This document shows, piece after piece, positions 2 to 11,239 of a stretch of 64,000 nt of DNA. The translations under genes were made by a program, and so were the position numbers. This DNA comes from Nitrospiraceae bacterium (lineage in GTDB: Bacteria > Nitrospirota > Nitrospiria > Nitrospirales > Nitrospiraceae): positions 1 to 64,000 of the forward strand of contig JABFSG010000048.1 in NCBI GenBank assembly GCA_013140715.1, in the 5' to 3' direction. The notes under the pieces are model-generated. The model was not told the origin of the DNA and did not search any database. It was given only the letters and a program-made list of their open reading frames with translations. Position 1 is the stretch's first letter; every line of letters begins with the position of its first letter.

Positions 2-751
2 ATGGGCATGAACTGGTTTAAGTATTCATCGCCACAGGCCTTCCACCCGCTGGCAGGGAAGATGATTCCCTGGTTTTCCGTTGCCGCGATCGGGTTGATC
101 GTCACGGGCCTGTACATTGGATTCTTCGTGGCGCCGACGGACTTTCAGCAAGGCGACTCCTACCGCATTATTTTTGTGCATGTGCCGGCGGCTTGGATGT
201 CGATGTTCTTGTACGTCGTCATGGCCCTGTGGGCTGGCCTTGGGTTGGGGTTGAATGCCCGTCCCTCGTTCATGATGGCGCAGGCGATCGCCCCTACCGG
301 GGCGATGTTTACCTTTCTGGCATTGCTCACCGGGGCGATGTGGGGCAAACCGACCTGGGGGGCCTGGTGGGTGTGGGATGCGCGGCTCACGTCGGAATTG
401 ATTCTGTTATTTCAATATATCGGGATCATCCTGTTGCGTGCATCGATTGACGATGTGCGGCGTGCCGATCGAGCGAGTGCGGTCTTAGCACTGGTCGGGG
501 TGGTGAATGTCCCGATCATCTATTTTTCGGTAAAATGGTGGAATACCTTGCATCAAGGCGCGTCGGTGACCATCACGGAATCGAAAATGGCCACGCCGAT
601 GGTTGCCGCGATGCTGATCATGATGCTGGGATTCTGGATGTACAGTTTTGCCGTCACACTGGCCCGCATGCGTTGCGTGATTCTCGATCGTGAGCGACAG
701 CCATCGTGGGGCAAGTCGTCCACCCTGCATGACGTGGCGGAGGCGCGCTGA
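2..751 (+). CDS. ccmC: Haem exporter/handling protein CcmC
   Basis: Inner-membrane component of the system I cytochrome c maturation pathway that presents haem to CcmE. The 249-aa product is polytopic and carries the tryptophan-rich haem-handling motif WGAWWVWDARLTS (about residues 118-130). It also has the two family histidines, H60 (in IFVHVPAAW) and H184 (in TLHQGAS). Length matches the family. The ATG lies one base from the window edge, so a slightly earlier start cannot be excluded; ccmA and ccmB presumably lie upstream. The stop overlaps the ccmD start (TGATG). Confidence 0.95.
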   Translation: MGMNWFKYSSPQAFHPLAGKMIPWFSVAAIGLIVTGLYIGFFVAPTDFQQGDSYRIIFVHVPAAWMSMFLYVVMALWAGLGLGLNARPSFMMAQAIAPTGAMFTFLALLTGAMWGKPTWGAWWVWDARLTSELILLFQYIGIILLRASIDDVRRADRASAVLALVGVVNVPIIYFSVKWWNTLHQGASVTITESKMATPMVAAMLIMMLGFWMYSFAVTLARMRCVILDRERQPSWGKSSTLHDVAEAR

Positions 752-909
752 TGCAGTGGGGGAGTGCCAGTGAGTTTTTTGCCATGGGTGGGTACGGTCT
801 CTACGTCTGGGTCTCGTTCGGTGTGACGGCCCTCTGCATGTTCGGGGAGGTGCTCGCAGTCTGGCGCCGACATGCGTCGGCGGTGGCAGAGCGTCGGGAC
901 GTGTCATAG
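751..909 (+). CDS. ccmD: CcmD, small membrane subunit of haem export
   Basis: A 52-aa protein starting on the A of the ccmC stop codon. The N-terminus MQWGSASEFFAMGGYGLYVW is the usual CcmD pattern, followed by one transmembrane helix and a basic tail (AVWRRHAS). CcmD releases holo-CcmE from the CcmABC complex. Position between ccmC and ccmE, size and topology all agree with this call. Confidence 0.88.
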   Translation: MQWGSASEFFAMGGYGLYVWVSFGVTALCMFGEVLAVWRRHASAVAERRDVS

Positions 910-924
910 GAGAAGAGGGAGACA

Positions 925-1392
925 ATGAAGCCTCGGCACAAACGGTTTGTGTTCATCGGTCTCGGGCTACTCGCACTGGCAGTGGCGTCGATGTTGATCC
1001 TGAATGCGTTTCAGAGCAATCTCGTCTTCTTTTTTACGCCAACGCAGGTGGCCAATGCCGAGGTGCCGAAAGGACGCGGGTTTCGGATCGGTGGGATGGT
1101 CGAAGACGGGAGTCTCACCCGCGAGGGGGATGGCTTGACCGTCCATTTCGTGGTGACCGATTTTGCGAAGCGCGTGCCGGTGACGTTCAAAGGAATCCTG
1201 CCGGATTTGTTCAAAGAGGGAAAGGGCGTTGTGGCCCAGGGGCAACTCGGGCCTGATGGGACATTCCTCGCAAGCGAAGTGCTGGCCAAGCACGATGAAA
1301 ACTACATGCCGCCAGAAGCCGCTGACGCGTTGGCCAAAGCCAAGGCATCCGGAGCCCAACCCAGCAATACGCTTGTCGTCAATCCACGCTAG
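925..1392 (+). CDS. ccmE: Periplasmic haem chaperone CcmE
   Basis: A 155-aa protein with an N-terminal membrane anchor (about residues 8-28) and an OB-fold periplasmic domain. The covalent haem-binding histidine is H123 in [12 protein letters not shown], the family signature. CcmE carries haem from CcmC to the CcmF/H ligase. The start is preceded by a purine-rich GAAGAGGGAGA ribosome-binding region. The gene sits 15 bp after ccmD and 8 bp before ccmF. Confidence 0.96.
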
Positions 1393-1400
1393 GAGCCACC

Positions 1401-3392
1401 ATGATTCCAGAGATCGGTCATTTTGCTTTGATTCTCGCGCTTTGTGTAGCGGTGGTGCAGGGGAGTCTTCCCATCTATGGTGCTGCAGTTGGAAACTCTG
1501 CGCTCATGTCCATAGCAAAACCGGCCGCGCGCGGGCAATTTCTCTTGGTCCTGCTGGCATTTTGTTGTCTGGGATATGCCTTCGCGGCCAAGGACTTTTC
1601 CGTGCTCTATGTCGCGGCCACTTCTAACTCTCAGCTCCCCCTTCACTATCGCCTCGCGGCCATTTGGGGCGCTCATGAGGGATCGTTACTCCTCTGGGTA
1701 TTCATTCTCACGATATGGATGGTTGCGGTCTCTTTCCTATCAGCCCATCTGCCCGAAGCGATGCGTGCCCGTATTCTTGGCGTGATGGGTTTGGTCAGCA
1801 TGGGATTTCTTCTATTCATGCTGACGGTCTCCAATCCATTCGAGCGGTTGATCCCAGCTGCATTCGATGGGCGCGATCTCAATCCCCTGTTGCAGGATCC
1901 TGGGATGGTCATACATCCACCGATGCTCTACATGGGGTATGTGGGATTCTCCGTTGCCTTCGCTTTTGCGATTGCGGCACTGTTCGGGGGAACACTGGAT
2001 GCGGCCTGGGCCCGCTGGTCACGACCCTGGACTACAGTTGCTTGGTGTTTTCTGACTATTGGCGTTGCGATGGGGAGTGGCTGGGCCTATTACGAGCTGG
2101 GTTGGGGCGGGTGGTGGTTCTGGGATCCGGTCGAAAATGCCTCCTTTATGCCTTGGTTGGCTGGAACGGCGTTGATTCACTCATTGGCAGTCACAGATAA
2201 ACGGGGCGGTTTTAAAGCCTGGAGTGTGTTGCTCGCCATTTTGGCGTTTTCCCTTAGCCTGCTCGGAACCTTTTTGGTCCGCTCCGGCGTACTGACCTCC
2301 GTGCATGCGTTTGCCACCGACCCGAAGCGGGGCTTGTTCATCCTTGTGTTCCTGGCCGTGGTGATCGGAGGCTCCCTGATGTTATACGCGTGGCGTGCGC
2401 CACGTGTGGGACTGGGTGGTGGTTTCTCTGTCATATCGCGCGAGGGGATGCTGCTGACGAATAACGTGTTACTGATTGCAGCCTTAGGGTCGGTGCTTTT
2501 GGGCACCCTGTATCCTCTATTCTTGGATGCGTTGGACCTCGGGAAAATTTCTGTAGGGCCGCCCTATTTTGACACCGTCTTTGTCCCGCTGATGACACCC
2601 GCCATCTTTTTGATGGGGATCGGCCCCCTGGCGCAGTGGAAGAAAGCCAGCCTGCCGGAACTAGCCATGCGCCTGCGTTGGGCGTTTGGGGTGAGTGTTA
2701 CAACGGCTCTGGTGCTACCGATTGTCTTGGGCCATTGGTCTCCCCTTGTCAGTCTGGGTCTCTTGTTGGCGCTCTGGATTGCGACAACGATCGCCACGGA
2801 TCTGCGTGAACGGCTGGCCCATACGGATGGAAACAGTTTCTTTGGCCGGCTGGCCTCAATGCCACGATCATATTGGGGGATGGTTGTGGCTCACTTCGGA
2901 CTCGCTTTGTTTATCACAGGCGTGACCATGGTGAAGGGCTTTGAAGTTGAGCAGGACGTCCGGATGAATGTCGGACAGACGGCTACGCTTGGCGGCTATA
3001 CTTTCCGGTTTGACGGAACCCAACAGTATAAGGGACCGAACTATGTCGCGGCGCGTGGAACAATTCACGTGAGCCAGGACGGGCACGATGTGACGGTCAT
3101 GTATCCGGAAAAACGACGATATACTGTGCAGAATCAGACCATGACCGAAGCGGCTATTTCTCCCGGGCTGTTGCGCGATCTCTATGTGTCATTAGGTGAA
3201 CCGCTCGATGACGGAGCTTGGAGCGTACGGCTCTATCACAAGCCCTTTATCGATTGGATCTGGGGCGGGTGTTTAATCATGGCAATGGGCGGTGTCTTGG
3301 CCATCAGCGATCGCCGATACCGGCTTGCGTGGCGGCGTAAAGATGTCGAGGTGCCTGCCACGACACAGATGGCTCGGCAGACAGTCTCATGA
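1401..3392 (+). CDS. ccmF: Cytochrome c haem lyase subunit CcmF
   Basis: A 663-aa polytopic inner-membrane protein with the haem-handling WWD motif (WGGWWFWDPVENASFMPW, about residues 235-252). Family blocks HPPMLYMGYVG and LLGTFLVRSGVL are also present. A periplasmic loop near the C-terminus (about residues 515-610) precedes the last helix. It is the core of the CcmF/G/H ligase that attaches haem to CxxCH motifs. The stop overlaps the ccmG ATG (ATGA). Full family length; no frameshift seen. Confidence 0.96.
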   Translation: MIPEIGHFALILALCVAVVQGSLPIYGAAVGNSALMSIAKPAARGQFLLVLLAFCCLGYAFAAKDFSVLYVAATSNSQLPLHYRLAAIWGAHEGSLLLWVFILTIWMVAVSFLSAHLPEAMRARILGVMGLVSMGFLLFMLTVSNPFERLIPAAFDGRDLNPLLQDPGMVIHPPMLYMGYVGFSVAFAFAIAALFGGTLDAAWARWSRPWTTVAWCFLTIGVAMGSGWAYYELGWGGWWFWDPVENASFMPWLAGTALIHSLAVTDKRGGFKAWSVLLAILAFSLSLLGTFLVRSGVLTSVHAFATDPKRGLFILVFLAVVIGGSLMLYAWRAPRVGLGGGFSVISREGMLLTNNVLLIAALGSVLLGTLYPLFLDALDLGKISVGPPYFDTVFVPLMTPAIFLMGIGPLAQWKKASLPELAMRLRWAFGVSVTTALVLPIVLGHWSPLVSLGLLLALWIATTIATDLRERLAHTDGNSFFGRLASMPRSYWGMVVAHFGLALFITGVTMVKGFEVEQDVRMNVGQTATLGGYTFRFDGTQQYKGPNYVAARGTIHVSQDGHDVTVMYPEKRRYTVQNQTMTEAAISPGLLRDLYVSLGEPLDDGAWSVRLYHKPFIDWIWGGCLIMAMGGVLAISDRRYRLAWRRKDVEVPATTQMARQTVS

Positions 3393-3916
3393 ATCGGTTT
3401 CTCATCCCGCTCGGGATCTTTGTCGTCGTGGTCGGTTTCCTTGGTGTCGGCCTGACGCTCAACCCGCGTGAATTGCCGTCGCCTTTAGTGGGAAAGCCGG
3501 CGCCTGAATTTTCGCTCCCGCAACTCCATGATCAGCAGAAAGTGTTGTCGACGAACGATTTGAAGGGCCAGGTATGGCTACTCAATTTCTGGGCTTCCTG
3601 GTGTGGCGGTTGTAAGACAGAGCATCCTGTCCTCATCCAGCTTGCACAATCAGGCGTCGTGCCGATCTACGGCATGGATTATAAGGACCGAAGGGAAGAA
3701 GCGTTGGCCTGGTTGAAAGAGTGGGGTAATCCCTATCCGATCGTCGCGATGGATGAGTCGGGGCGTGCCGGCATCAATTATGGTGTCTATGGCGTGCCGG
3801 AAACCTACGTAATCGATAAGGCGGGGGTTATTCGCTATAAACAGATTGGTCCGTTACGCGAGGATATTTTGCAAACGAAAATTTTGCCGCTGATCAGGGA
3901 GTTGCAGAATCAATGA
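3389..3916 (+). CDS. ccmG: Thiol:disulfide oxidoreductase CcmG/DsbE
   Basis: A 175-aa membrane-anchored thioredoxin-fold protein with one N-terminal helix (residues 5-24) and active site WASWCGGCK (C72, C75). It keeps apocytochrome CxxCH cysteines reduced. The cis-Pro region GVPETYVID and the acidic GMDYKD segment of CcmG are visible. It overlaps ccmF and ccmH by 4 bp on each side, so translation is probably coupled. Confidence 0.95.
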   Translation: MNRFLIPLGIFVVVVGFLGVGLTLNPRELPSPLVGKPAPEFSLPQLHDQQKVLSTNDLKGQVWLLNFWASWCGGCKTEHPVLIQLAQSGVVPIYGMDYKDRREEALAWLKEWGNPYPIVAMDESGRAGINYGVYGVPETYVIDKAGVIRYKQIGPLREDILQTKILPLIRELQNQ

Positions 3917-4380
3917 GGTGGCTGTACTTAGTAGTCGTCCTTCTCTTCCCGGGTCTTGCTGCGGCGGCTTATGAAGCCAGCCCGCTTGCTGAGAACCCTC
4001 AGGTTGAAGCGCGGTTAAAAGCTCTCGCTGTAGAGCTTCGCTGCCTGGTTTGCCAGAACCAGACGCTGGCCGATTCGAACGCGCCATTGGCCGAAGACCT
4101 GCGCCGAGAAGTTCGTGAAATGATCGTTAAAGATATGAGCGACAAGGAGATTATTGATTTTCTCGTCACACGGTATGGAGATTTTGTCTTATATCGTCCT
4201 CCTCTCAAGACCTCAACCACCTTGCTCTGGGTGGGACCCTTCCTCCTGCTGATCGGAGGCGCGACGGCATTGGTATTTGCGCTACGCAGGAGACAGAGAA
4301 AGTTGACCGAGGTGTCATTGTCGGAAGCAGAGCATAACCGTGTTGCACAAATGCTCTCCGAAGGAGCGAATCGCCCTTGA
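3913..4380 (+). CDS. ccmH: Cytochrome c biogenesis protein CcmH (NrfF-type)
   Basis: A 155-aa protein with a signal sequence (residues 1-19), the LRCLVCQNQ redox motif (C44, C47), the three-helix CcmH domain, a membrane helix (about residues 103-122) and a short basic tail. It works with CcmG to reduce and present apocytochrome c. It matches the N-terminal half of E. coli CcmH; the TPR half is the separate ccmI downstream. Confidence 0.95.
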   Translation: MRWLYLVVVLLFPGLAAAAYEASPLAENPQVEARLKALAVELRCLVCQNQTLADSNAPLAEDLRREVREMIVKDMSDKEIIDFLVTRYGDFVLYRPPLKTSTTLLWVGPFLLLIGGATALVFALRRRQRKLTEVSLSEAEHNRVAQMLSEGANRP

Positions 4381-6053
4381 CCATTCTATTCTGGATTATC
4401 GCATCGACGATGACCGTGCTTGTCCTCGGTCTTCTGTTGTGGCCACTGCTAAGCCGTAAGGCGGTCATTGCAAAAGGAGAGGAAGAAAAGACTCTGTCTA
4501 TTTACCGACAGCAGTTCGCAGAATTAGGGCAGGACCGCGCAAATGGTGTGCTGACCGACGAACTGTACCAACAAGCACGACGTGAGCTTGAACGTCGTTT
4601 GTTGGAAGAGACTGGGACGACGGAGCCGACACCTAAAATAGCTCGGCAGCAACTGCATGCCAGGCCGGTGGCGATTGCCATCGCCATCATTGTCCCGACA
4701 GTCAGTGGGTTACTCTATTGGCAAATTGGGAATCCGCTCGCGATGACAGAGCCGTCTGCTGCCTCGCTGTCTGCGCAAGGGGGAGCAGAGGACGGGAGTC
4801 CGTTCTCCGATGGGCTTGGTCCGTTGATCGAACGGCTCAAACAGAAAATGGAGCAGAATCCGAATGATGGTACGGGCTGGGCATTGCTCGCTCGTTCATA
4901 TATGGGAATGGGGCGCCATGCCGAAGCCGCACTGGCTTACGAAAACGCCACAAAACTGATCCCAGATGATGCCCAGCTACTTGCCGATTATGCAGATGCC
5001 ATGGGGGTCTTGCATGGTCGTAAGCTGGAAGGAAGGCCTGAGGCTTTGATCCAACAGGCGCTGAAGATCGATCCTCGCAATGTGAAGGCACTGATGTTGG
5101 CCGGGACCGTAGCGTTCAACCGAAAGGATTTCGGGCGTGCCGCTAAGGATTGGGAGCTGGCTCGTGTGAATCTCCCCGTGGATGTAGATCCTGAGATGAT
5201 GCAGCAATTGGTGGCTGCGATCGAAGAGGCCAAGAGCCACCTTGGGGGCGGCCGAGAGATGGTGCGTATGGATACGGAACCGGCAGCGCCAGCTCAGCCA
5301 GCCAAACAGTCCGGACAGCCGCGTGCAATTAGAGGCACGATCACCATGGCACCGAGCCTCGCCGGCAAGGGGGCTCCGACGGACACGTTGTTTGTGTTTG
5401 CCCGCCAGATGAATGGGCCGCCGATGCCTGTGGCGATTGTGCGTGCAACAAAAAAAGATTTGCCCTTTACATTCCAACTCGATGACTCGACCAGCCCGAT
5501 GCCTTCCAGGAAACTTTCCAGCGCAGGCCCTGTGGTGATTGTTGCCCGTCTATCGAAGTCTGGCCAGGCCATGCCCCAGGGTGGAGATCTAGAGGGGACC
5601 AGTCAGCCGATAGAATCCGGAGGGGAGGGGATTACAATTGTCATCGATCACGAGAGGATGGATAAGGAATCTGCAGCACCGGCTCCGCAAGCCAGCCAAA
5701 TGGCGCAGCCTCGTGCGATCAGAGGTACGGTGACTATGTCGCCGAGTCTGGCCGGCAAAGCCTCCGCGACAGATACGTTGTTTGTCTTTGCCCGTGAGAT
5801 GAGTGGGCCACCGATGCCTGTGGCGATCGTGCGTGCAACAAAAAAAGATTTGCCTTTTACATTCCAACTCGATGACTCGACCAGCCCGATGCCTTCCAGG
5901 AAACTTTCCAGCGCAGGCCCTGTGGTGATTGTTGCCCGTCTATCGAAGTCTGGTCAGGCCATGCCCCAGAGTGGAGATTTAGAGGGGACCAGTCAGCCGA
6001 TACAATCTGGAATGGATGGGATTAACATCGTTATCGATCGTGAAAGACCTTGA
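4377..6053 (+). CDS. ccmI: CcmI/CycH apocytochrome c chaperone with a duplicated C-terminal domain
   Basis: A 558-aa protein starting at TTG in a TTGA overlap with ccmH, with AAGGAG at 4361-4366. Order: membrane helix (about 5-22), the CcmI N-terminal region (IYRQQFAEL...), second helix (about 97-115), and TPR repeats (about 150-300). Two copies of the CcmI C-terminal beta domain follow, at about 315-422 and 445-557 (each RAIRG...PSLAGK...DTLFVFAR...LSKSGQAMPQ...DLEGTSQP). CcmI normally has one such domain. At DNA level the copies are offset by 390 bp and almost identical over about 5440-5610 against 5830-6000, which suggests recent duplication or gene conversion. CcmI binds apocytochromes and delivers them to the ligase. 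Confidence 0.93.
   Translation: MTILFWIIASTMTVLVLGLLLWPLLSRKAVIAKGEEEKTLSIYRQQFAELGQDRANGVLTDELYQQARRELERRLLEETGTTEPTPKIARQQLHARPVAIAIAIIVPTVSGLLYWQIGNPLAMTEPSAASLSAQGGAEDGSPFSDGLGPLIERLKQKMEQNPNDGTGWALLARSYMGMGRHAEAALAYENATKLIPDDAQLLADYADAMGVLHGRKLEGRPEALIQQALKIDPRNVKALMLAGTVAFNRKDFGRAAKDWELARVNLPVDVDPEMMQQLVAAIEEAKSHLGGGREMVRMDTEPAAPAQPAKQSGQPRAIRGTITMAPSLAGKGAPTDTLFVFARQMNGPPMPVAIVRATKKDLPFTFQLDDSTSPMPSRKLSSAGPVVIVARLSKSGQAMPQGGDLEGTSQPIESGGEGITIVIDHERMDKESAAPAPQASQMAQPRAIRGTVTMSPSLAGKASATDTLFVFAREMSGPPMPVAIVRATKKDLPFTFQLDDSTSPMPSRKLSSAGPVVIVARLSKSGQAMPQSGDLEGTSQPIQSGMDGINIVIDRERP
5436..6005 (+). repeat. In-frame tandem duplication (390-bp period) inside ccmI
   Basis: The segment around 5436-5615 recurs at about 5826-6005 with only a few base differences. 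Landmarks such as GCGTGCAACAAAAAAAGATT at 5441-5460 and 5831-5850 are exactly 390 bp (130 codons) apart. The flanking parts of each unit are more diverged. A third, more diverged copy lies in the next gene (about 6500-6710). Confidence 0.9.
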
Positions 6054-6183: not shown

Positions 6184-6215
6184 TTGACATCCTCCAATAT
6201 ATGCTGAGATATATG
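6184..6215 (+). promoter_or_regulatory. Candidate promoter for the secreted CcmI-domain gene; resembles the haoA promoter
   Basis: A perfect TTGACA (6184-6189) is followed by AATATATGCTGAGATATATGCGCG. The same arrangement, TTGACATC...AATATATGCTGCGATATAC.ATGCGCG, lies upstream of haoA at 6884-6920. The -10 here is less clear: AGATAT after 17 bp or TATATG after 20 bp. The shared block suggests that both genes are expressed together. Confidence 0.5.
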
Positions 6216-6286
6216 CGCGCTGTTCGCTAAAGGATACGTTCACTCAAGACGATAATGCTGTGTCTTAACATACGGGGAGTACGCTC

Positions 6287-6742
6287 ATGGTCGACAAATT
6301 TTGGCTGGGATGTGGTTTTGTGGTTTGCGGTGCCTTGTTCGCTGCGGCAGTGCCAGTATATGCAGAAGCTCCTGCATCCGCCAGGCTAGTCGGACAGTCG
6401 CTTGCGATTAGCGGCAAGGTTACGATAGCGCCGAGCCTGGCTGGGAAGGGGTCTGCGACAGACACATTGTTTGTGTTTGCCCGCGAGGCGAATGGCCCAC
6501 CAATGCCAGTAGCCATTGTGCGGGCGACAAGAAAGGATCTGCCCTTCACATTTCGGCTTGATGATTCGAATAGTATGATGCCCTCCAGAAAACTTTCCGA
6601 TGTGGGGACGGTTGTAATTGTGGCTCGTCTGTCCAAGTCCGGCCAAGCCATGCCGCAAAGTGGAGATCTCGAGGGAACAAGTCAGCCGGTGATGCCGGGA
6701 GCGGATGGGATCACTATCCTCATTGATCGTGAGAGACCCTAG
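6287..6742 (+). CDS. Secreted stand-alone CcmI C-terminal domain protein
   Basis: A 151-aa protein with a signal peptide (residues 1-26, cleavage near VYA/EAP) followed only by the CcmI C-terminal beta domain (about 35-150: SGKVTIAPSLAGKG...DTLFVFAREANGPPMP...DLEGTSQP). There are no TPRs and no membrane anchor after cleavage. Its first 21 residues closely match those of HaoA (M-x-x-KFWL-x-CG-x-VVCG), so the two genes share promoter region and signal sequence. It lies between ccmI and haoA. Family knowledge suggests apocytochrome binding; a dedicated periplasmic chaperone for HAO or its partner cytochromes is inference. The RBS is GGGGAG (6274-6279). Confidence 0.8.
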   Translation: MVDKFWLGCGFVVCGALFAAAVPVYAEAPASARLVGQSLAISGKVTIAPSLAGKGSATDTLFVFAREANGPPMPVAIVRATRKDLPFTFRLDDSNSMMPSRKLSDVGTVVIVARLSKSGQAMPQSGDLEGTSQPVMPGADGITILIDRERP

Positions 6743-6883: not shown

Positions 6884-6912
6884 TTGACATCGAATATATG
6901 CTGCGATATACA
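6884..6912 (+). promoter_or_regulatory. Candidate sigma-70-type promoter of the hao operon
   Basis: TTGACA (6884-6889), a 17-bp spacer and TATACA (6907-6912) give a near-consensus promoter. It leaves a leader of about 125 nt before haoA. An A+T-rich stretch lies just upstream (6820-6880). The 300-bp gap 6743-7042 holds nothing else recognised. Confidence 0.6.
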
Positions 6913-7042
6913 TGCGCGGCACGCTAATTAGTAACCGCTAATAAACCATTGTAAGTCTAAATGCACGCAGATGCGAAGGCAGGATCATTAGAAAACGGTT
7001 TGACAAAGAAGTCGGGTAATTATCATCAGTAGGAGGGGTAAT

Positions 7043-8752
7043 ATGACCAATAAATTCTGGTTGCGATGTGGGGTGGTGGTCTGCGGCCTGTTGCTGGCAG
7101 CTACGGCGCAAGCCAACTTCCCCAGCGTCCCCAAGGAAACCTACGACGCGCTGAAGTTGGATCGGTCTGCCGATCCGAAGCAGTTGCATGAGGCCTTGGT
7201 GAAGCGGTATCTGGATCCGGCCCAAGGGGCGGGCAAAGGGAAGTATGCGGAGTATTGGGAGCCGCTCCCTTTCAGTAAGTACCTCGATCCCCTCTCGTTC
7301 TACAAGCCGCCCACCACAGTGAAAGATGTCGCAACGCGCGAACAGTGCGTGAAGTGCCACACCGATGAATCGCCGGGTTGGGTGACGCTGTGGAAGAAGA
7401 GCAGTCACGCCAATCTGGACAAGATTCGCAAGCTCACCCCGAAAGACGATACCTTCTACAAGAAGGCGAAGTTGGAGGAAATCGAGACGAACTTGCGCTC
7501 GCTGGGCAAGCTCGGGGCAAAAGAGAACTTGAAGGAAGTCGGCTGTATCGATTGTCACGTCGACATCAATACCAAGAAGGCGGCCGATCACCGGGCCGAC
7601 CTCCGGATGCCCACCGCCGATGTCTGCGGCAACTGCCATCTGCAGGAATTTGCCGAGCGTGAGTCGGAGCGGGACACGATTACCTGGCCGAAGGATCAGT
7701 GGCCCAAGGGGCGTCCCTCTCATGCGCTGGACTATCGCGCCAACGTGGAAGTGGAAGTTTACGCCGGAATGTCGCAGCGGGAAATCGCCGACGGCTGCAC
7801 GTTGTGTCACACGCAGCAGAACAAGTGCGACAACTGTCACACGCGGCATGAATTCTCGGTGGCCAACTCGCGCAAGCCAGAAGCCTGCGGCACCTGTCAC
7901 AGCGGCGCCGACCATAACAACTGGGAAGCCTACAATGGCTCGCAGCATGGTCTCGGCTACCAGGAAGATAAGAAGAACTGGAACTTCAATGTGCAGCTGA
8001 AGGATGCGGTGGCCAAGGGCGGACAGAGCTATCCAACCTGCCAGAGCTGCCACATGGAGTATCAGGGGAAGTACACGCATAACGTCGTGCGGAAAGTCCG
8101 CTGGGCGAACTATCCTTTCGTGCCAGGGATTCGCGAGAACATTAAGACCGATTGGGCGGACAAACGCTTGGATGCCTGGGTGAAGACCTGTACGGGCTGC
8201 CATTCGGAGCGCTTTGCCCGTGCCTATCTAGAGTTCATGGATAACGGCACCAACTCCGGCATCGATAAGTACGATGAAGCGCATAATGTTCTCCATAAGC
8301 AGTTCGAAGACGGTCTGTTAACCGGACAGAAGACGAACCGCCCGGCTCCGCCGAAGCCCGTGCCGGATGGCTTCGAGCAGTTCTTCCAGATCTATTGGTC
8401 GAAGGGGAATAACCCCTCCGCGATGGAGCTGAAGTTGTTCGAAATGGCGGAAGATCATCTCGTGCAGCTGCACGTGAGTCTGGCCCATCAATACCCAGGG
8501 TTCACCTATACGGTGGGCTGGGCCGCGATGAACCGGGCGTATGTGGAGATCATGGATGAAGACACGCAGATGAAGGAGCGCATGGCGCTGGCCGAGCGAG
8601 TCGCCAAGCTGGAGAAGACAAGGACGAGCAGTCTGTTGGACTTCGACAGCACGGACGGCAAGATCACCCTTGGGAGCGTGGGCGGCGGCATGTTGTTCGC
8701 CGGGACCCTGGCCCTGGCTGGCTGGAGCCGACGCAAGAAGAACAGACCGTAA
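7043..8752 (+). CDS. haoA: Octaheme hydroxylamine oxidoreductase
   Basis: A 569-aa periplasmic multihaem cytochrome with a signal peptide (residues 1-24) and eight CxxCH motifs (CVKCH, CIDCH, CGNCH, CTLCH, CDNCH, CGTCH, CQSCH, CTGCH). By family order the fourth haem (CTLCH) would be the P460 catalytic haem. The C-terminal block [13 protein letters not shown]...NRAYVEIMD holds the candidate cross-linking tyrosine (Y489, at the place expected from Nitrosomonas HAO). A C-terminal hydrophobic helix (about 545-562) with a basic tail suggests a membrane anchor. It oxidises hydroxylamine and passes electrons to c554/cM552. The RBS is AGGAGGGG. First gene of a four-gene operon. Confidence 0.95.
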
Positions 8753-8774
8753 CCAGTCGAGGCGCAGCGCAGAT

Positions 8775-9800
8775 ATGGACGATGCGCTGACGCGACCGCA
8801 CAACAGAATCCTCCCGTCATTAGGAATAATCCTCGTGGCGGGAGGTTTTCTTATGCTCGGATGGTTTGTGTACGTCTGGCTAAGCCCAGCACAGATTCCT
8901 TATCATTATAAATTGGCAGAAAATGGAGGCGTTGAAAAATTCAGCAAGCTAGGACTTGAAGCATGGCCCGATCTGAGTATCAGTAGGCAAGAAGTTGTTG
9001 TCGAAGGTGTGGATCAGCCGGTAGCTGTCGCCTACCTCGCTAGTCGTGGCAATGGTAAGCCGGTCATGCTCAATTGGGAGAACCGCACCGGCGAACCGAT
9101 GGTTTTCGTCGACGGCAAGCTCTCCGAATTGACGACATTGGCAACAGCGATTGCCAAGCATCTCCCGAAGGGTGCTCCAATCCTTGCTTGGTGGGATACC
9201 TCGCGTCAAATTCAGCTGCTGACAGGATATGAGACGACCTTCGTTTCGCACCTTGGCGAACCTCTCATCCTTCCGGCCCTTTGGCGCCCGCATATCGGAG
9301 GCATAGAGAAATACGAAGGTGAGTTTTGGAACTCCAGGCCAAGCGCAGAAGAGAGCAAAAAGTTTCAACGCTTTGCGGATGCCTTGGTCGCGGATGTAAA
9401 TGAAGGCTCCCAGATCCTGAGGGAACTGACAGGCGATCGAGAGGGCTATCTCGCGGTACACATCTCGGACCTCTATAAAATTGGCTTGATGCGTCCGGAC
9501 CGAATCGGAGTCGCCTATAAGGATTTTCCCTTGAGAGGCGGCGACGTGCATGGCCTCAGCGGGATGGTAAAGCGTTGGTTGACGGATAATAACTACAAAA
9601 CCCACACAGTCCATGGCATTTCTGAAAACTATGTGCGTGCATATTTTCTTACAGATGATAAGAGTGCGAACACGCTTCTTGCTCAGATGCTGCCCTTAAC
9701 CACGTCGCAGCCTATGGATTTGAAGGCGGTTCAGCTCGTATATCAACAGGGAGGTTTTTGGGTTTATAAAATTCCACCGGTGCAGCCGTCGAATGGCTAA
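8775..9800 (+). CDS. haoB: HaoB, hydroxylamine oxidoreductase-associated protein
   Basis: A 341-aa protein with one N-terminal membrane helix (about residues 13-33, LGIILVAGGFLMLGWFVYVW) and a large periplasmic domain without CxxCH motifs. It follows haoA by 22 bp, the position of haoB in ammonia oxidisers, and precedes the c554 gene. The role of HaoB is not firmly known. The open frame extends 35 codons upstream into haoA, but ATG 8775 is the sensible start. Confidence 0.85.
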   Translation: MDDALTRPHNRILPSLGIILVAGGFLMLGWFVYVWLSPAQIPYHYKLAENGGVEKFSKLGLEAWPDLSISRQEVVVEGVDQPVAVAYLASRGNGKPVMLNWENRTGEPMVFVDGKLSELTTLATAIAKHLPKGAPILAWWDTSRQIQLLTGYETTFVSHLGEPLILPALWRPHIGGIEKYEGEFWNSRPSAEESKKFQRFADALVADVNEGSQILRELTGDREGYLAVHISDLYKIGLMRPDRIGVAYKDFPLRGGDVHGLSGMVKRWLTDNNYKTHTVHGISENYVRAYFLTDDKSANTLLAQMLPLTTSQPMDLKAVQLVYQQGGFWVYKIPPVQPSNG

Positions 9801-9923
9801 GTTATTTCGATAGAAAATCGGGTGGCCCGTTCTTGTAATTCATACGATCTCACGTTAAAGTGTTTCGGCAATCAGGTTCGAGAGTACGATGGCGTATTGT
9901 TTTTTGTGATGAAAGGAGGCCCT

Positions 9924-10643
9924 GTGAATTATCGTATCGCATTTGCCCTTGCTGCCGCTGTGACATTAGTCGCCATAGCTGGAAGCGCTTCTGCTGAGAC
10001 CCCATTTGAAGGTCGTAAGAAATGCAGTTCCTGCCACAAGAGTGAAGCTGATTCATGGGTTAAAACTGCCCATGCGAAAGCAGTCGATTCGCTCAAGGCT
10101 GATAGGAACAAGGAAAAGAACGCAGCCATGGTCAAGGCGAAACTTGATCCAAAGAAGGATTACACGAAGGACAAGGATTGCATTGGTTGTCACGTGACCG
10201 GGTTCGGGTCGGAAGGTGGATATGAAGTGACAGAGCCGGATAAGTTCCTCGCTGGTGTCGGTTGTGAATCCTGCCATGGAGCGGGCACCGATTATCGCAA
10301 GATCCATCGCAAGGGTGGCGAGGCCTTCGAGAAGTCTAAAAAGGTTACGGCTCGCGCCTCCCTCGAGGAAGCAGGGCAAGATTTCGCATTTGTAGAGAAA
10401 TGCAACGCCTGTCACCTGAACTACGAGGGCTCGCCTTGGAAGGGCGCAAAGAAGCCCTATACTCCGTTCACTCCTACGGTTGACAAGAAGTATGCGTTCG
10501 ACTTTGAGAAGTCTGTGCGTAACAACAAGGCGATGCATGAGCACTACAAACTGGTGGGTACGTTTGATGGTCCACCTACCCCGAAGTTCCATGAAGAGTT
10601 CCAAAAGGATGCCAAGCCGGCCGAGATAGGCAAGGAGGAGTAA
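9924..10643 (+). CDS. cycA: Tetraheme cytochrome c554-type electron acceptor of HAO
   Basis: A 239-aa protein with a signal peptide (cleavage near ASA/ETPF) and four CxxCH motifs (CSSCH, CIGCH, CESCH, CNACH) in the c554 arrangement. It takes electrons from HAO in the periplasm. GTG 9924 is chosen because AAAGGAGG at 9912-9919 sits just ahead of it; an in-frame ATG at 9909 would lie upstream of that site. The stop overlaps the next ATG (TAATG). Confidence 0.92.
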   Translation: MNYRIAFALAAAVTLVAIAGSASAETPFEGRKKCSSCHKSEADSWVKTAHAKAVDSLKADRNKEKNAAMVKAKLDPKKDYTKDKDCIGCHVTGFGSEGGYEVTEPDKFLAGVGCESCHGAGTDYRKIHRKGGEAFEKSKKVTARASLEEAGQDFAFVEKCNACHLNYEGSPWKGAKKPYTPFTPTVDKKYAFDFEKSVRNNKAMHEHYKLVGTFDGPPTPKFHEEFQKDAKPAEIGKEE

Positions 10644-11239
10644 TGGCAGAGTGGGGTAGGGTGTCGATCGGTGCCCTGATTCTTGGCGCAGCGATTGGCG
10701 TCGGAACGATTGCGGTGGTATTCGGCGGTGAAGCAGCTATATCCAGGACCGATTTCTGTGTGAGCTGCCATTCCGAGACGTATCCGTATGAGGAACTAAA
10801 GAAATCCTCACACTACGGTGCACTCGGTGCTGATCCTGGATGTAAGGACTGCCATGTTCCGCAGGGTTTTAAAAACTTCCATCTGGCGTTGTGGACCCAT
10901 GTGATGGATGGAGTGCCGTTTCTGATAGAAGAGTTCACCGTTGACTACTCGACAATTGAGAAGTTCAATGAGCGACGGCCTGAGGCGGCCTATAGGGCGC
11001 GCATGAAGTTGAAGGGCTGGGACAGCATGACCTGCCGGGAATGCCACAAGAATACCAAGCCTCCCGGAGCATCGGCCAAAGCTATGCACAAGAAGATGGA
11101 AACGGAGGGTGCAACCTGCATCGATTGCCACCAGAATCTTGTGCATAAAAAAGTTCCTGAAACGGATCTCAATGCCAGTTTAAAGCAGGGCAAGAATGTG
11201 CCGAAAGAAGAGCCAAAAGAGAAAAAAGAAGAGGAGTGA
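10643..11239 (+). CDS. cycB: NapC/NirT-family tetraheme cytochrome (cM552 type)
   Basis: A 198-aa protein with one N-terminal membrane helix (about residues 7-27) and four CxxCH motifs (CVSCH, CKDCH, CRECH, CIDCH), the layout of NapC/NirT quinone-interacting cytochromes. By analogy with ammonia oxidisers it passes electrons from c554 to the quinone pool. The tail is Lys/Glu-rich (PKEEPKEKKEEE). It overlaps cycA by one base, with AAGGAGGA as RBS. Confidence 0.92.
   Translation: MAEWGRVSIGALILGAAIGVGTIAVVFGGEAAISRTDFCVSCHSETYPYEELKKSSHYGALGADPGCKDCHVPQGFKNFHLALWTHVMDGVPFLIEEFTVDYSTIEKFNERRPEAAYRARMKLKGWDSMTCRECHKNTKPPGASAKAMHKKMETEGATCIDCHQNLVHKKVPETDLNASLKQGKNVPKEEPKEKKEEE

Follow-up and report, generated by a model that had tools for sequence, protein, structure and literature searches.

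What does a small secreted protein encoded between the cytochrome c maturation gene ccmI and the hydroxylamine dehydrogenase gene hao do, and where did it come from? We addressed this question in a window of 64,000 nucleotides from a Nitrospiraceae bacterium (GCA_013140715.1, contig JABFSG010000048.1, positions 1 to 64,000), in which the small gene, here called IgS, lies on the same strand (+) as both neighbors. That HAO genes lie together with those for type I cytochrome c biosynthesis is established (PMC6311188). We found nothing in the literature on the IgS gene itself, only this co-location being noted (PMC6311188).

Domain content of IgS and its locus

We confirmed that the gene encodes a signal peptide followed by a lone Ig_CycH domain, the C-terminal domain of CcmI. 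A preliminary description made from the DNA letters had read the gene in the gap between ccmI and hao in this way, and the open reading frame and its one-domain Pfam result bear it out. Pfam PF23892 (Ig_CycH) matches residues 42-147 with an E-value of 3.3e-36, and the match is full-length (profile positions 2-108 of 108, 123.8 bits at a curated cut-off of 27). It was the sole Pfam domain found even at E-values up to 10, and the TPR domain (PF23914) was not detected. There was no NCBIfam match to IgS, so that the N-terminal membrane part of CcmI (TIGR03142), which the neighboring ccmI matches, was not found either. Residues 1-26 (MVDKFWLGCGFVVCGALFAAAVPVYA) read as a cleavable Sec signal peptide. 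The mature protein of 125 residues has a pI of 9.4 and contains zero Cys, His, Trp and Tyr. We looked for the marks of a c-type cytochrome or a thiol-redox Ccm protein, and the mature chain has neither a CXXCH motif nor a redox-active Cys. No solved structure matching IgS by sequence was found; an AlphaFold2 model of the domain predicts seven strands at a pLDDT of about 90.

Table 1. Features of the hao-linked locus, in window coordinates.
Feature	Position	Strand	Basis or remark
ccmC, ccmE, ccmF, ccmG, ccmH (hao-linked System I cluster)	2..4380	+	PF03100, PF16327, PF08534, PF03918; ccmC assigned by position and conserved orthologues
hao-linked ccmI, TPR and two tandem Ig_CycH (5325-5648, 5715-6038)	4377..6053	+	PF23914, PF23892 twice, TIGR03142
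hao-type promoter element 5' of IgS, TTGACATCCTCCAATATATGCTGAGATATATGCGCGC	6184..6220	+	one of two genome-wide pattern matches
IgS	6287..6742	+	151 aa, ATG; secreted protein, single Ig_CycH domain
IgS signal peptide, 26 residues, homologous to HAO signal peptide	6287..6364	+	BLOSUM62
IgS short linker of mature protein, variable	6365..6406	+	alignment
hao promoter element, TTGACATCGAATATATGCTGCGATATACATGCGC	6884..6917	+	other of two genome-wide pattern matches
hao (hydroxylamine dehydrogenase), with signal peptide	7043..8752	+	PF13447, E 2e-140
haoB, cytochrome c554 (cycA), cytochrome cM552 (cycB)	8760..11239	+	TIGR04392, NF043010 (just below cut-off), PF03264

The same domain is multiplied in the neighboring CcmI. 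The hao-linked CcmI has 1, 2 or 3 Ig_CycH copies in clade-B-type genomes and 1 in clade A, clades being assigned by grouping with two anchors, RCB ('Rifle_cladeB') inside the IgS group and RCA ('Rifle_cladeA') outside it. Housekeeping CcmI also has 1; in the genome studied here this second ccmI lies on another contig. Identity between the IgS domain and the Ig domains of CcmI proteins in its own genome is about 79%. The two Ig_CycH copies of the hao-linked CcmI (5268-5567 and 5658-5957) are 86% identical in DNA, and 124 out of 125 bases are identical between them at 5439-5563, a pattern as seen after gene conversion. Elsewhere in the phylum, a 693-aa frame (G216:C505:1522-2658) has three Ig_CycH matches, and multiplication of the domain is thus not confined to clade B.

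Upstream region and signal peptide

What is new here is that the promoter and signal peptide of IgS are, as judged by sequence comparison, homologous to those of hao. The upstream regions of the two genes are homologous to each other. An 18-base core (AATATATGCTGNGATATA) has exactly two mismatch-free occurrences in the 3.58-Mb assembly, and the pattern TTGACAN{12,20}GATAYAN{2,5}GCGC matches this genome at only 2 sites, one before IgS and one before hao. A scan of 30 genomes with this pattern found the element ahead of hao in 14 clade-B-type genomes and ahead of IgS in 12, with a few matches elsewhere too; the reversed-pattern control gave 0 matches in the 30 genomes. The element, seen by conservation, was not picked up in a sigma-70 consensus scan. 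IgS retains it even in two genomes, G005 and G023, that carry IgS in a separate operon with the ccm genes, located downstream of cM552 and on the opposite strand. By this upstream hao promoter element, conserved in relatives, IgS counts as a putative member of the hao regulon. The signal peptides of IgS and HAO align with a local BLOSUM62 score of 78, whereas the highest score among 287 unrelated signal-peptide-like N-termini was 36.

The simplest reading would be that an Ig domain acquired the promoter and signal peptide of hao. Among the clade-A genomes searched, 3 out of 5 have the element, before hao only. Because hao can thus have the element where IgS is lacking, the likely direction is capture of the hao 5' region by a CcmI-type domain.

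Occurrence, selection and divergent relatives

We surveyed 32 genomes of the genus to which the window belongs. The haoB gene was found in 12, and all 12 carry IgS. Another 14 genomes of the genus have an orthologue at this locus, truncated in one of them, and the nine that we aligned are 75-94% identical. IgS is under purifying selection: the pN/pS of its domain is 0.146, compared with 0.21 for HAO and 0.215 for CcmI, and that of its signal peptide and linker is 0.47. Given the orthologues at the same locus and the low pN/pS of the domain, IgS is not a chance open reading frame.

Some loci are irregular. Beyond the 12 haoB genomes, three more (G002, G003 and G015) have an intact or cut IgS, with hao absent, shortened or running off the end of a contig. 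Two of these, G002 and G003, have amoA, the ccm genes that go with hao and a whole or partial IgS but lack hao-haoB-c554-cM552, by loss or misassembly; the IgS frame of G002 runs on into the cM552 tail (L053, 8756-9327), and hao of G003 ends after about 94 codons and is followed by other sequence (L052, 9566-10617). In the isolate 337R_metabinner_41 the HAO frame of 683 aa is longer than all others, perhaps by an insertion (L061, 516-2564, also L128), and its best segment is only 66% identical to the HAO of the window. In the isolate ACE_NIT7, an intact hao (L103) is accompanied by a second locus on another contig, at which hao is split into several frames and adjoins a complete ccm cluster (L139, 10001-11514).

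IgS was absent at 37 clade-A comammox hao loci, where the same ccm-hao layout places hao directly after ccmI, and no standalone Ig_CycH protein was found in any of the 16 clade-A whole genomes searched. The clade-A HAO is 75-80% identical to that of the window type. We therefore rejected IgS as a requirement of all comammox HAO, and HAO maturation does not depend on it in general. The proposal in the preliminary description of a helper specific to HAO stands in part: the common promoter, the homologous signal peptide and the presence of IgS in every hao-bearing genome of the genus agree with it and make the link with hao closer than that description could show, but clade A makes HAO without IgS.

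That proposal had also been tied to the absence of the gene from nitrite-only Nitrospira without hao. We found no close IgS orthologue in any nitrite-only relative searched, only a divergent class of single-domain Ig_CycH proteins. These occur in genus members without detected hao, 13 of which carry the divergent standalone protein instead of IgS, and are widespread across the Nitrospiraceae. Their identity to IgS is 30-36% across the full protein and 35-42% within the domain. A secreted single-domain version had been thought undescribed, but with this class widespread in Nitrospiraceae without hao, the architecture itself is not new. In 16 of 25 genomes checked, the divergent protein was present and no CcmE scored above the cut-off, indicating that Ig_CycH can exist and work outside System I. 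Siroheme-synthase-like and HNH-endonuclease-like genes, recognized by eye, neighbor the divergent gene, and this neighborhood is conserved across Nitrospiraceae genera that mostly lack CcmE (L183, L184, L187, L189, L190, L191).

A tree of the Ig domains, built on 108 columns only, sets the divergent class apart from the CcmI and IgS domains by very long branches. Tests on this tree rejected neither IgS as one clade (p-AU 0.348) nor IgS grouped with the hao-linked CcmI (p-AU 0.101). A domain this short shows neither a single IgS origin nor descent from the neighboring ccmI, and we do not take that descent as proven.

Possible roles and known systems

We put the probability at about one half that IgS is a hao-co-regulated periplasmic accessory of HAO/cytochrome maturation that arose via domain duplication in clade B. 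On this reading IgS would duplicate the C-terminal Ig-like domain of CcmI in soluble form in the periplasm, presumably expressed from the hao promoter and exported by the hao signal peptide, and so produced together with HAO. Its most likely task is to offer in trans the site that the Ig domain provides at the end of CcmI. This site may be a surface on which the haem-ligation complex (CcmF/H/E) docks, or else the multihaem cytochrome undergoing loading, and IgS would make more such sites available during the production of octahaem HAO and its cytochrome partners. The maturation role and the binding partner, like the direction of transfer, we infer; a role in maturation or as a partner is supported by the promoter in common with hao, by selection and by the additional Ig copies in the neighboring CcmI. 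More tentatively, and with the balance of our judgment somewhat against it, clade-B comammox bacteria may have joined a CcmI Ig domain to the promoter and signal peptide of hao to form an HAO-dedicated accessory, raising Ig_CycH at the hao locus to 2-4 copies and exposing a hitherto unassigned function of the domain in multihaem cytochrome loading. We found no function of the Ig_CycH domain in the literature.

A first alternative, which we regard as unlikely, has IgS associating with mature HAO or with the HAO-c554-cM552 module as a structural subunit, in docking or in quality control, produced alongside HAO and having no role in haem attachment. A promoter and signal peptide in common with hao itself, the lack of Cys, His and a haem motif, and the occurrence of divergent relatives without System I all agree with such a partner. 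However, the IgS domain has stayed close in sequence to the CcmI Ig domains of its genome, and the CcmI of the cluster has multiplied the same domain, which points to a partner common with CcmI.

The preliminary description had favored a dedicated apocytochrome chaperone, for HAO in particular, which now appears improbable. CcmI is indeed an apocytochrome chaperone, and IgS has a promoter in common with an octahaem client; but the literature assigns the binding activity of CcmI and NrfG to their TPR repeats (PMC3884852, PMC12285233), which IgS lacks. The step from apocytochrome binding by CcmI to binding by its Ig_CycH domain is not supported in view of this point and of a second: E. coli CcmH has the TPR part without Ig_CycH, so System I of that species can do without the domain. 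HAO production in clade A without IgS also speaks against a dedicated chaperone.

We give a still lower probability to Ig_CycH being a pilotin-like envelope domain that binds a client helix unrelated to cytochrome maturation, its place in CcmI being just one of several uses. With models of both IgS and the divergent protein as queries, the pilotins AspS (5wec; Z 9.2 and 9.5) and ExsB (2yjl; Z 9.0 and 8.0) ranked first and second among the fold matches, over 98-100 aligned residues, in a search with VIA-align 2 that re-ranks Foldseek matches only and whose lists are not exhaustive of folds. Standalone relatives in genomes without System I would also fit. Yet Z-scores of 8-9 are only modestly above the next matches, and a common fold shows no function. 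Sequence comparison gave this reading no support: we found no match of IgS to the secretin pilotin family (AspS/ExsB/YscW, PF09619) at E-values up to 10, and kinship to E. coli YbaY had an hhalign probability of 6%. We treat the resemblance of the predicted models to pilotins as a lead only. Very improbable is a functionless by-product of duplication at a repeat-rich locus, which the repeated, partly homogenized Ig domains might suggest but which is disfavored by the selection data, with an intact secreted IgS conserved across the genus and its promoter retained even after rearrangement.

If the reading of IgS as a co-regulated accessory of maturation is right, the locus is a compact example of a gene newly built from the regulatory and export signals of an enzyme and a domain of a maturation factor, and tied to a key enzyme of nitrification. 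IgS separates Ig_CycH from the TPR part of CcmI, making the function of the domain testable alone, and its distribution suggests that the hydroxylamine step may differ biochemically between comammox clades A and B.

Among known systems, the pilotins AspS and ExsB are the best fold matches of the models but are lipoproteins of secretion systems. The divergent proteins of nitrite-only Nitrospiraceae, for which we found no name, resemble IgS in having a signal or anchor segment and one Ig_CycH domain in about 150 aa; unlike in IgS, their N-terminal segment is modelled as a helix and may be an uncleaved anchor, and they occur in genomes that have no hao and often no System I. IgS has the C-terminal domain of CcmI/CycH over its full length, but in contrast to CcmI/CycH it is free-standing and secreted, has its own promoter and lacks the membrane and TPR parts. 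The chaperones CcmI and NrfG act via the TPR repeats that IgS does not have, and what they have in common with it is the tie to cytochrome c maturation; NrfG shows that an accessory can be dedicated to a single multihaem enzyme.
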